Shown here: positions 6,171-12,907 of the stretch, in pieces | Numbering within the stretch: the first letter of the stretch is position 1 | Layout of the letters: each line of letters begins with the position of its first letter | Origin: Acidobacteriaceae bacterium | GTDB lineage: Bacteria > Acidobacteriota > Terriglobia > Terriglobales > Acidobacteriaceae | Direction of reading: 5' to 3' | DNA: 44,382 nt | Assembly: GCA_025355385.1 (NCBI GenBank) | Contig: JANXZS010000018.1 | Span: forward strand, 1 to 44,382 | Notes under the pieces: generated by a model | What the model was told of the DNA's origin: nothing | Database searches by the model: none | Seen by the model: only the letters and a program-made list of their open reading frames with translations | Program-made: the position numbers and the translations under genes

Positions 6171-6950
6171 ATGCCATTAAGCAAAGCAAAGAAGGCGGAG
6201 CAGATCGACAAGTTGTCGCAGGAGCTTAAGGGCTCTACGACGGCTATTGTCGGCACTTTCGCAAAACTGACGGTCTCTCAGGATTTCCAGTTGCGCAAGG
6301 CCGTTCGCGGCGTTGGGGGCAGCTATCGCGTGGTCAAGAACAAGCTTGCCGCACGCGCAGCTCAGGGAACCGGAGTAGAAGCGGCACTGCAGGGCCTGAA
6401 GGGCGTTTCGTCCGTGGCATATACCAGCGGCGACCCGGTGGCGCTGGCCAAAGCTCTCTCCGCGTGGGTAAAAGACAATTCCGAATTTACCTTCAAGCTG
6501 GGTATTTTGGATGGCAGGGTATTGACAGTCGCCCAGATCGGCGAACTGGCGACCATGCCGAGTAAGGAAGAGATTTACGCTAAGCTGCTGTTCCTGATCA
6601 ACTCGCCAGCGCAACGGCTGGCAACCGTGATCAGCGCCACAGGCCGCGATCTGGCGGTGGTAATCAATCAGGGAGTGGAGAAGGGTAAGTTTGCAGCGCC
6701 GGCAGCAAGTGCCGCGGTCGAGCCTGTCGTGGCGGCGAAGGTTGCGGCACCAGCTGAGCCCGCGACGCCCGCTGAGCCCGCGGCTGAGATTGTAGTATCG
6801 AAAGAGCCAGGTGCGATGGAAGTTGTGGCCCCGGTGGCTACGGAGCCTGCAGGCTCGGCTCCGGCGGAGCCCTCGGCAGCTCCGGTGGTGGAAGCTATCG
6901 ACGAGCCGGCCGTGGGCGCAATAACTCCCGACGAGCCGGCAGCTTCGTAG
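6171..6950 (+). CDS. rplJ: 50S ribosomal protein L10 with extended C-terminus
   Basis: Begins MPLSKAKKAEQIDKLSQELK, with the L10 core including VVKNKLAARAAQGTG and the C-terminal helix that binds L7/L12 dimers (LLFLINSPAQRLATVI). The usual protein ends near residue 170. Here a tail of about 85 residues follows, made almost only of Ala, Pro, Glu, Val and Ser with repeats such as PAEPA. Total 259 residues. L10 anchors the L7/L12 stalk that recruits translation GTPases, and the tail would project from the stalk base. A reading that begins at 6027 overlaps rplA and is not credible. Confidence 0.96.
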   Translation: MPLSKAKKAEQIDKLSQELKGSTTAIVGTFAKLTVSQDFQLRKAVRGVGGSYRVVKNKLAARAAQGTGVEAALQGLKGVSSVAYTSGDPVALAKALSAWVKDNSEFTFKLGILDGRVLTVAQIGELATMPSKEEIYAKLLFLINSPAQRLATVISATGRDLAVVINQGVEKGKFAAPAASAAVEPVVAAKVAAPAEPATPAEPAAEIVVSKEPGAMEVVAPVATEPAGSAPAEPSAAPVVEAIDEPAVGAITPDEPAAS

Positions 6951-6959
6951 AAGAATTCT

Positions 6960-6974
6960 GGGCGAGTTTCGCCC
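6960..6974 (+). promoter_or_regulatory. small hairpin after rplJ
   Basis: GGGCGA, loop GTT, TCGCCC: a perfect 6-bp stem 10 bp after the rplJ stop, in the 199-bp rplJ-rplL spacer. No T-tract follows. It is at most a weak regulatory or stabilising structure. Confidence 0.4.
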
Positions 6975-7149
6975 TGACCCGTCGGAAACAGCGGCCTTGC
7001 CTTGGCCCTGTTGAGAGACAAGTTTTCGTGCAATCGGCATAGGGGTGCCAAGTCTGGGCACATCGGAAACCTCAGCCAATGCGACAACCGACGCGCTTAC
7101 GCGGGTCGGAGCAGTAAAAAATTTAGTTTAGGTTAAAGTGGAGAGAATC

Positions 7150-7524
7150 ATGGCGGACTTACAGCAGTTAGAGGAACAGATTGTCGGGCTTAGCCTGTTG
7201 GACGCGGCTGCCCTTGTGAAGAAGCTAGAAGAGCGACTCGGCGTCTCGGCGGCAGCAGCGGCACCGGCGGCGGCGGCTGGGGGAGCGGCAGCAGCAGCGG
7301 CTCCAGTCGAAGAGCAGACCGAGTTCACCGTGATCCTCAAGGATCAGGGAGCGAACAAGATCAACACCATCAAGGCGGTACGGGAAGTGACCTCGCTCGG
7401 CCTGAAGGAAGCGAAGGATCTCGTGGATGGCGCTCCCAAGCCCCTGAAGGAGAACGCCACCAAGGAAGAAGTTGAGACGATCAAGAAGAAATTCGATGGC
7501 GTCGCGACCCTAGAAGTCAAGTAG
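7150..7524 (+). CDS. rplL: 50S ribosomal protein L7/L12
   Basis: 124 residues. The N-terminal dimerisation domain ([20 protein letters not shown]) is joined by an Ala/Gly/Pro hinge at about residues 35-57 to the C-terminal factor-binding domain ([20 protein letters not shown], then [20 protein letters not shown]), ending TLEVK. It is the multicopy stalk protein that recruits EF-Tu, EF-G and IF2. ATG 7150 has GGAGAG 4-9 bp upstream; an in-frame GTG at 7138 would place that sequence inside the gene, so I reject it. Confidence 0.98.
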
Positions 7525-7839
7525 GCAAGTTGCATGCCAAAGCAAGACGCGCTATGCTCAGTCATGGGGCGTCTCGCTTAGGCTGTAAGTTTTTTTCGGT
7601 CACGAAGACGCGAAAGGCTGCGTTGATTTTTGCGCCTGGCATAACGCCAGCGCGTCGATCCCTGAGTTGATTGGGTATCGCACGACAGTTCTCGGCACGC
7701 TGGTGCCGACATTTCTGCAAAGCGGGCGGCGGGTTTGCAGTAATGCTGAATGATCTGCTGTGAGGCGGCACACACGCTAGTTCTAAACCGGTGGGAATCG
7801 GACATTCTATTTTCGTCAAGTGCACAATTCGGTTGTGAC

Positions 7840-7872
7840 GCTCGAGGGGCTTCCTGTCCCTACGAGCCTTTT
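7840..7872 (+). promoter_or_regulatory. terminator-like hairpin in the rplL-rpoB spacer
   Basis: GCTCG-AGGGGC, loop TTCCT, GTCCCT-(bulged A)-CGAGC: an 11-bp stem with one G-U pair, then CTTTTGCGTTGTT. It is 315 bp after the rplL stop and about 380 bp before rpoB. In E. coli the same spacer holds a partial terminator and an RNase III site that set the ribosomal-protein to polymerase ratio. This hairpin is a candidate for the same job, inferred from position and structure. Confidence 0.65.
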
Positions 7873-7963
7873 GCGTTGTTCGTGGCAGGCCATTTGTGGT
7901 CGGGCCTGACATATTGCGATTGTCTGATATTGTGATGCCGATTTTACCCATCATCTGGCTAAC

Positions 7964-7989
7964 GTGTCCCGAATAAATACACGGGACAC
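7964..7989. promoter_or_regulatory. 8-bp inverted repeat upstream of rpoB
   Basis: GTGTCCCG and CGGGACAC are exact reverse complements separated by 10 AT-rich bases. The size and spacing fit a dimeric regulator operator or a small RNA stem. It is 262 bp upstream of the rpoB start and directly before the 17-bp tandem repeat. Confidence 0.55.
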
Positions 7990-7995
7990 AAGCGC

Positions 7996-8029
7996 GAAAT
8001 CTTTACCGTTCTGAAATCTTTATCGGTCT
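7996..8029 (+). repeat. tandem 17-bp repeat upstream of rpoB
   Basis: Two adjacent 17-bp units, GAAATCTTTACCGTTCT and GAAATCTTTATCGGTCT, match at 15 of 17 positions. They start seven bases after the inverted repeat. Such paired units often bind a regulator. The remaining ~220 bp to rpoB show no gene and no clear -35/-10 pair that I would defend. Confidence 0.75.
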
Positions 8030-8250
8030 TACATCGGACCGCGCATTGCAGGTTGGCTGAAGCCGTTTTTCCAGGCGCATTCTTTGGTAGGTTCGCCTGA
8101 TTTTAATAGAAAGCCATGTCCGGTCTGAACGAGGCGGGTCGGATATGCGAGCGGAAGTGTATTACCAGATTTGCCGTTTGACTCGGGCGGCAGGTCTTCT
8201 TCCGGTGTACAGTGCCGGAGCCTCGGGGACACGAGTTCCAGGAGTGAAGC

Positions 8251-12723
<4,473 letters not shown>

Positions 12724-12726
12724 ATC

Positions 12727-12760
12727 GTGTCCCGGGCCGCGCAGTAGCGGCTCCGGGCAC
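12727..12760 (+). promoter_or_regulatory. long GC-rich hairpin between rpoB and rpoC
   Basis: Starting 3 bp after the rpoB stop, GTG-(T)-CCCGG-GCCGC, loop GCAGTA, GCGGC-(T)-CCGGG-CAC form 13 base pairs with one bulged T on each side. No T-tract follows, so it should not terminate efficiently. A processing or stability role is more likely. The rest of the 197-bp spacer includes a 7-bp inverted repeat (CCTGTCC...GGACAGG). Confidence 0.7.
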
Positions 12761-12907
12761 TGGTTCATCGCCCAGATTTTTGAAGACAGGCGCCTGTCCC
12801 ATAAGAGCTAACGGCTCCCCCGGGAAGGACAGGAACCGATAAACATTTATCCCGGGAACGCAGCAGGCCACACTCCGCCGGCAATATGCCATGCGGAGAA
12901 AGGTGCC

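Follow-up and report, generated by a model that had tools for sequence, protein, structure and literature searches.

A probable three-module leader between rplL and rpoB in Acidobacteriaceae, with promoter-like, attenuator-like and pseudoknot elements

The spacer between rplL and rpoB in a genome of the family Acidobacteriaceae is probably a conserved three-module leader that uncouples the synthesis of RNA polymerase from the upstream ribosomal-protein genes. We analyzed a stretch of 44,382 nucleotides of this genome (hereafter, the window) and compared its spacer with those of relatives. Module A is a promoter-like site within a hairpin directly after rplL, module B is an attenuator-like hairpin, and module C is a predicted pseudoknot at the rpoB ribosome-binding site. 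The structures of modules A and B are well supported by sequence comparison in the larger of two groups of loci (group 1), and that of module C in the main clade of this group. We infer promoter activity, termination, and the involvement of any regulator, and in our best reading the leader would supply rpoBC with a putative promoter of its own, a terminator that acts in part, and an element that controls translation. Such a layout could let the cell set its amount of RNA polymerase; how this amount is balanced against that of ribosomes is a basic problem in the study of growth.

The rplL-rpoB spacer and the loci compared

The source genome has a size of 4.6 Mb, and, by rpoB, the closest named relatives among the matches listed include members of Paracidobacterium, Silvibacterium, Acidipila, Granulicella, and Edaphobacter, which are genera of the Acidobacteriaceae. 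Pfam searches gave the gene order nusG, rplK, rplA, rplJ, rplL, rpoB, and rpoC around the spacer. The upstream gene rplL, encoding L7/L12, lies at 7150-7524 on the forward strand, as do all features described below. Its Pfam domains (PF00542 and PF16320) were found on 7138-7524; we took the ATG at 7150 as the start codon, and the list of open reading frames begins at the GTG at 7138. The downstream gene rpoB, with Rpb2 domains, occupies 8251-12723. The gap at 7525-8250 thus has exactly the 726 nt given in an earlier note on this DNA, which was made from the sequence alone and had called the spacer long and rich in control elements. All 106 compared gaps measured 333-988 nt (median, 695), and the proposal of a control region in the spacer is supported by the results below. 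In 37 more distant loci, the spacer measured 101-523 nt and was shorter than 333 nt in 28.

The comparison set consisted of 106 rplL-rpoB spacers, of which 105 were distinct (L047 and L055 are identical). Thirty loci came from the source genome and its relatives; 29 of these are labelled as the same family and one, L008 (from genome G038), as another family of the order, despite which its rpoB and spacer resemble those of group 1. The remaining 76 were taken from the 80 named loci with the most similar rpoB, four of which were dropped because their spacers were identical to ones already present; their record titles vary in precision, from a genus name down to 'Acidobacteria bacterium', and L107 is titled Rhodanobacteraceae. 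Group 1 comprises 86 loci (L002-L011 and L032-L111), and group 2 comprises 20 (L012-L031), which we take to be a Koribacter-like lineage. By database labels, nine of the 37 distant loci belong to the same order, nine to the class, and 19 to the phylum. The patterns for module A, for the ECF-like motif of group 2, and for the pseudoknot were recognized by eye in the loci on which they were afterwards tested. To count pair changes, we used a quick tree built from the first 1200 bases of rpoB in 83 loci and counted the fewest switches from one Watson-Crick pair type to another; rows lacking such a pair are ignored in these counts, and a switch may go via G-U.

Several other features of the locus came to light. 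The rplJ-rplL spacer at 6951-7149 is also long, with 199 nt up to the ATG at 7150, and it served as a control region in the pseudoknot scan. At the 3' end of rplJ, GACGAGCCGG occurs twice, at 6900 and 6930 (6900-6939 of the window), and because of this repetition L10 may carry a small repetitive tail. The rpoB-rpoC spacer at 12724-12890 (167 nt) contains a perfect palindrome, GACAGGCGCCTGTC, at 12785-12798, together with CCCGGGA/TCCCGGG repeats. In 15 of 18 non-family genomes with near-full RpoB matches (all except G038, G053, and G055), the protein alignment breaks at approximately amino acids 1263-1306 (about 12037-12168 of the window), a sign that the RpoB of the family may carry an insert of about 45 residues.

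Promoter-like and attenuator-like hairpins

Module A lies at 7530-7579, directly after rplL, and contains the promoter-like site TTGCAT-17-TATGCT, a putative promoter of rpoB. The -35-like hexamer TTGCAT is located at 7530-7535 and the -10-like hexamer TATGCT, 17 nt farther on, at 7553-7558. The pattern TTGC-N19-TANNNT, which was picked after viewing the alignment, was present in the first 260 nt of the spacer in 84 of the 86 group-1 loci and in none of the 20 group-2 loci; dinucleotide-shuffled spacers gave a mean of 1.2 and a maximum of 7 among 106. This sigma70-like site lies 2-153 nt past rplL, and its hexamers are conserved with a spacing within the 16-18 nt of sigma70-type promoters. TTGCAT matches the -35 consensus at only three of six positions, and the site was absent from the list returned by a standard promoter scan. 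That scan listed another sigma70-like site, CTGACA-16-TATTGT at 7906-7933, which lies downstream of hairpin B and is seemingly unconserved in a ten-locus alignment.

The -10-like hexamer is enclosed in a predicted hairpin at 7540-7579, in which 7540-7543 pairs with 7576-7579, 7545-7550 with 7569-7574, and 7552-7556 with 7563-7567. The hairpin has a folding energy of -21.8 kcal/mol in the window (z -3.93 for the cut-out stretch), and the predicted fold encloses the -10 in all 84 motif-positive loci. We examined covariation in alignment A3, which holds 55 of these 84 loci; the 29 omitted were the duplicate L055 and loci that were poorly alignable by eye (L007, L011, L051, L053, L057, L071, L072, L074, L090-L092, and L095-L111). 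Over 12 pairs, 87.6% of the positions were paired and nine pairs had changed on both sides. Double-changed cells numbered 65 versus 23.7 in shuffles (0 of 500 as high), slid registers scored much lower, and the rpoB tree required at least 27 Watson-Crick pair changes over 10 pairs. A covariance model of module A had a single match in the source genome and, under strict filters, matched 21 of 100 family genomes, among which the match in G025 was weak and distant from rpoB. The T fraction after the hairpin was 0.21-0.54 over 18 positions against a background of 0.22, and because this enrichment is weak, hairpin A is not a clear intrinsic terminator. A run of seven Ts at 7590-7596 begins 10 nt past hairpin A in the window and is variable among relatives.

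In group 2, a different motif was found at the place of the sigma70-like site. The pattern GAANC-N17/18-[AG]TC[ACT]A, again picked after viewing the loci, occurred in 14 of the 20 group-2 spacers, compared with a mean of 0.34 and a maximum of 3 in shuffles, and also in five of the 86 group-1 loci. It lies mostly within a strongly folding stretch and reads like a putative ECF-type promoter, a type expected to have a GAAC-like -35 and a GTC-like -10 at 16-18 nt.

Module B, at approximately 7800-7880, consists of an 11-bp hairpin with AGTGCACA ahead of it and a T-tract behind it. Its conserved upstream part at 7800-7839, as seen in alignments A1 and A2, has AGTGCACA at 7819-7826 and a small variable hairpin recognized by eye; the T-rich tract CTTTTGCGTTGTT follows the main hairpin at 7868-7880. 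The main hairpin itself was correctly located by the earlier note at 7840-7867, with 11 pairs, a 5-nt loop, one bulge, and a folding energy of -18.8 kcal/mol (z -4.31 for the cut-out stretch). As a single sequence it is unremarkable on its own, because hairpins with 11 or more pairs and no more than one mismatch arose in 131 of 200 dinucleotide shuffles. Evidence for it comes from the relatives. A sequence profile of module B, which was iterated on the same set that it scored, matched 100 of the 106 spacers; among the six misses, the hairpin was visible by eye in four, and the other two were L090 and L091. The profile gave no match at E<=1 in the 37 more distant loci. A covariance model built from group 1 scored 69 bits in the source genome, where the next match had 19.7 bits. 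With strict filters, the model matched 67 of 150 family genomes at E<=0.01 (four with a second match) and 47 of 150 at E<=1e-5, with one match each at that level. In all 17 of these 47 genomes with a listed rpoB position, the strong match lay less than 500 nt upstream of rpoB. The other 20 of the 67 genomes had weak matches only (E > 1e-5), some of them distant from rpoB (G015, G025, and G027).

Alignment A2 comprises 81 of the 84 group-1 profile matches after removal of three identical fragments. The stem of hairpin B was 94.9% paired, with 34 double-changed cells versus 16.3 in shuffled alignments (0 of 500 as high); the number of pairs with a double change was not above shuffles (338 of 500), and at least 17 Watson-Crick pair changes over four pairs were counted on the rpoB tree. 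In group 1, the T fractions at positions 1-5 after the hairpin were 0.38, 0.52, 0.79, 0.89, and 0.61, with a background of 0.22. At 7840-7880, the window thus has the arrangement of the E. coli-type attenuator, in which a hairpin with a T-tract behind it lies between rplL and rpoB. In group 2, the tract is displaced about 8-11 nt past the stem, unlike in a standard terminator. The suggestion that this terminator-like hairpin is an attenuator has therefore gained from the comparison: the hairpin is conserved, shows compensatory changes, and is followed by a T-tract, and we regard it as a good candidate attenuator of rpoBC in group 1 and a less clear one in group 2. Judged by sequence comparison, the covariation of modules A and C, both of which lie outside the region at 7840-8029 described in the earlier note, is stronger than that of the 11-bp hairpin.

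Two repeats farther downstream had also been described, and a regulator of rpoBC had been proposed to bind them. Both are present: an 8-bp perfect inverted repeat at 7964-7989 (7964-7971 and 7982-7989, with a 10-nt loop) and a 17-nt tandem repeat at 7996-8029 (7996-8012 and 8013-8029, 88% identical). Among the three features described at first, the tandem repeat alone stands out in single-sequence statistics. No tandem repeat of 12-25 nt at >=87.5% identity appeared in 60 dinucleotide shuffles of the whole spacer, and an 8-bp perfect inverted repeat with a loop of 3-20 nt appeared in 30 of 200 shuffles, which is not above chance. The region at 7800-8060 folds slightly better than its shuffles (z -1.81; 8 of 200 equally good). 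Taken out of its context, the inverted repeat has a good fold (z -4.91), though it was chosen for folding; this fold and the above-chance tandem repeat are what would speak for a repeat-binding regulator. Against it, the best match of the 17-mer in other spacers was 14 of 17 positions in the genus-mate L003, where it is single-copy, and the remaining 104 spacers reached 13 of 17 at most, which equals the maximum in shuffled spacers (13). The inverted repeat is shortened to GTGTCC/GGACAC in L003, and none was seen in eight further aligned relatives. Because the tandem repeat is unconserved and the inverted repeat is reduced in the genus-mate and at chance frequency, we rejected both as conserved operators, and the binding of an rpoBC regulator to them is very improbable. 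Unrelated tandem repeats of 12-14 nt were seen in three other spacers (L043, L044, and L105).

The pseudoknot at the rpoB ribosome-binding site

Module C at 8168-8244 is a predicted H-type pseudoknot, which ends 2 nt before the Shine-Dalgarno site of rpoB. Stem P2 and its loop occupy 8168-8196, with 8168-8176 pairing with 8188-8196. Within this loop, the strand GACTCG at 8180-8185 can pair with the 3' strand CGAGTT at 8232-8237 to form the pseudoknot helix. An extra hairpin, P3, is predicted by folding at 8200-8220 inside the pseudoknot, and a similar hairpin was seen by eye in L032 and L034. The Shine-Dalgarno sequence AGGAG follows at 8240-8244, and its GGAG is invariant in alignment A4. This alignment contains 57 of the 86 group-1 loci, which are the distinct loci of the main clade; 19 Edaphobacter/Granulicella-like loci, nine L007-like loci, and one duplicate were omitted. 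The omitted clades entered the unaligned pseudoknot scan only and were weaker there.

The two strands of the pseudoknot helix co-vary among relatives, as in GACTCG/CGAGTC, GACCCG/CGGGTC, GAGACCTG/CGGGTCTC, AAACCTGG/CCAGGTTT, and GAAACTC/GAGTTTC. In the window, the helix has only six pairs, one of which is G-U. Over the 57 aligned loci, 84.0% of its positions were paired, and seven of eight pairs showed a double change. Double-changed cells numbered 35 versus 11.9 in shuffles (0 of 500), slid versions scored much lower, and at least 19 Watson-Crick pair changes over seven pairs were counted on the rpoB tree. Stem P2 scored 20.1 per sequence versus 10.2 with shuffled arms, and 48 of 57 loci exceeded the 95% point of this control. 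In one fixed register, P2 was weaker (68.9% paired; 31 versus 16.9 double-changed cells; 187 of 500 shuffles for the number of pairs with a double change), because its register shifts between clades. Pairing of a hairpin loop with sequence at the ribosome-binding site, preserved through compensatory change as expected of an H-type pseudoknot operator, was found in the main clade only.

In an unaligned scan of the last 150 nt before rpoB, the pseudoknot exceeded the 95% point of the control in 44 of 58 main-clade loci, six of 19 Edaphobacter-like loci, and one of nine L007-like loci; in control regions, the corresponding numbers were six of 58 upstream of rplL and eight of 58 in mid-leader. An earlier scan with fewer shuffles gave 42 of 86 for the whole of group 1 and two of 20 for group 2, the latter not above control. 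Several of the Edaphobacter/Granulicella-like loci (L095-L111) show the same topology with other letters in the last 115 nt before rpoB, for example GGAGGG, the loop CCTGACCG, CCCTCC, and CGGTCAG in L101, but the six that exceed the control's 95% point are too small a number to test this firmly.

The nested minimum-energy fold of 8160-8255 extends P2 into the loop and pairs the Shine-Dalgarno sequence locally, with an unremarkable z of -1.38. This fold hinted at a conserved stem masking the Shine-Dalgarno sequence, a candidate that we rejected because it was not above control among the main-clade loci (2 of 58). We also searched for a leader peptide in two loci with a crude filter: L002 had no open reading frame of >=15 codons with a Shine-Dalgarno-like site, and L003 had one TTG-started frame.

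A model for rpoBC control and its relation to known systems

The three modules can be combined into the following model. RNA reading through from rplJL would fold hairpin A at once, and this would mark the 3' end of the ribosomal-protein mRNA by termination, processing, or protection. The internal promoter would start RNA inside hairpin A and give a leader of about 685 nt. Because RNA started there is without the 5' arm, it could not form hairpin A and would escape. Hairpin B may then terminate part of the internally started transcripts, that is, attenuate them, and the pseudoknot would gate the access of ribosomes to rpoB, perhaps while bound by beta or polymerase. Beta or polymerase is a reasonable candidate ligand by analogy, because E. 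coli rpoBC is described, in an excerpt of PMC10931766, as regulated independently via autogenous control.

A bolder version of this model is a conjecture to which we give about one chance in four. In that version, the family-wide leader would represent an undescribed class of RNA switch through which polymerase (beta or core) senses its own level. The promoter would sit inside the hairpin at which the ribosomal-protein mRNA is closed, this nesting would have been kept while the promoter type changed (mostly sigma70-like, and ECF-like in the Koribacter-like lineage), and the main-clade pseudoknot would be the autogenous operator.

Other explanations of the conserved structures have to be weighed against the uncoupling leader. 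The inverted repeat of module A might be a DNA operator, at which a dimeric protein covers the -10 and represses rpoB with no need for an RNA hairpin. Its inner arms, ACGCG and CGCGT, are almost invariant in the 55 aligned loci with mostly constant spacing, and it overlaps the promoter-like site as classical operators do. The outer arms, however, vary and yet stay complementary with many G-U pairs (22 of 55 at one pair), and pairs of this kind, which are common in hairpin A, fit RNA better than a DNA operator. In addition, the spacing differs among clades, and where the ECF-like motif is present in group 2 (14 loci), a strong hairpin whose arms are very different is predicted in most cases; we therefore find a DNA operator unlikely. 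A somewhat better chance, still well short of even, goes to the idea that hairpins A and B are processing sites for RNase III or a similar enzyme, or protectors of mRNA ends, so that the ratio of L7/L12 to beta is set by stability and not by termination. The T-tracts are weak after A and displaced after B in group 2, as this idea would have it, and the E. coli rplL-rpoB transcription unit reportedly shows both attenuation and processing, to go by the title of a 1980 paper by Barry et al. cited in PMC5371410. The clear T-tract right after hairpin B in group 1, by contrast, is expected of a terminator.

Module C could also be a structural spacer or stability element without a regulator, in which the pseudoknot merely fixes the translation rate. 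A search for a conserved alternative fold that would mask the Shine-Dalgarno sequence gave none (2 of 58), and so no switch is evident, as this explanation would predict. The repeated compensatory changes beside the ribosome-binding site nevertheless show that the fold is kept, and a constant rate would presumably need a kept fold less. We consider a pseudoknot of this passive kind possible but doubtful, about as much so as the processing of hairpins A and B. A leader that uncouples rpoBC from the ribosomal-protein genes is thus the reading that we prefer. It would offer, in soil bacteria, a set of defined elements: a hairpin that holds a promoter-like site, a second hairpin that resembles an attenuator, and a pseudoknot at a ribosome-binding site. 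Since each base-paired element predicts the behavior of break-and-restore mutants, the control of rpoBC becomes testable outside the usual model organisms.

Pseudoknot operators at ribosome-binding sites exist, such as that of rpsO/S15. Operators of this type likewise have an H-type pseudoknot beside the Shine-Dalgarno sequence; here, the gene is rpoB, without a known binding protein. Searches with Rfam 15 at the gathering thresholds gave nothing in the spacer or in 12 other loci, and five tRNAs were the only matches in the window. The sole weak match under permissive settings, mir-2003, had 23.9 bits against a cut-off of 114 and was taken as chance. Among the papers listed from the open-access literature, we recognized no description of such a leader in Acidobacteria; most subscription journals lie outside that scope. 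The nearest named RNA is Lacto-rpoB (RF01709), a structured RNA of Lactobacillales that is tabled as a likely cis-regulator in an excerpt of PMC2864571, and whose position before rpoB we read from its name. Its model had no match in the window at gathering, none in 7480-8300 up to E=5, and none in 12 other loci at gathering.

Transcription of rpoB from its own promoters is described for mycobacteria. According to a portion of PMC6181997, mycobacterial rpoB-rpoC has promoters I and II with a conserved region between them, promoter II carries a conserved CGCTATNGTT motif, and no read-through from upstream was found, as far as that portion goes. The CGCTATNGTT motif slightly resembles CGCGCTATGAT in module A of some relatives of the window. 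The mycobacterial layout as given there, with two promoters flanking a conserved region, is unlike that of module A.

The closest parallel in position is the rplL-rpoB region of E. coli. In the text available from PMC4670729, the regulation of rpoBC is called complex and still incompletely understood, and an attenuator between rplL and rpoB is said to uncouple ribosomal proteins from polymerase subunits; an attenuator between the same two genes has the same place and a similar role to those proposed here. The loci described here show a conserved promoter-like site in the hairpin directly behind rplL and, for the main clade, a predicted pseudoknot at the Shine-Dalgarno site. In role, the three-module leader, itself without an Rfam match, is similar to the region between rplL and rpoB of E. 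coli.
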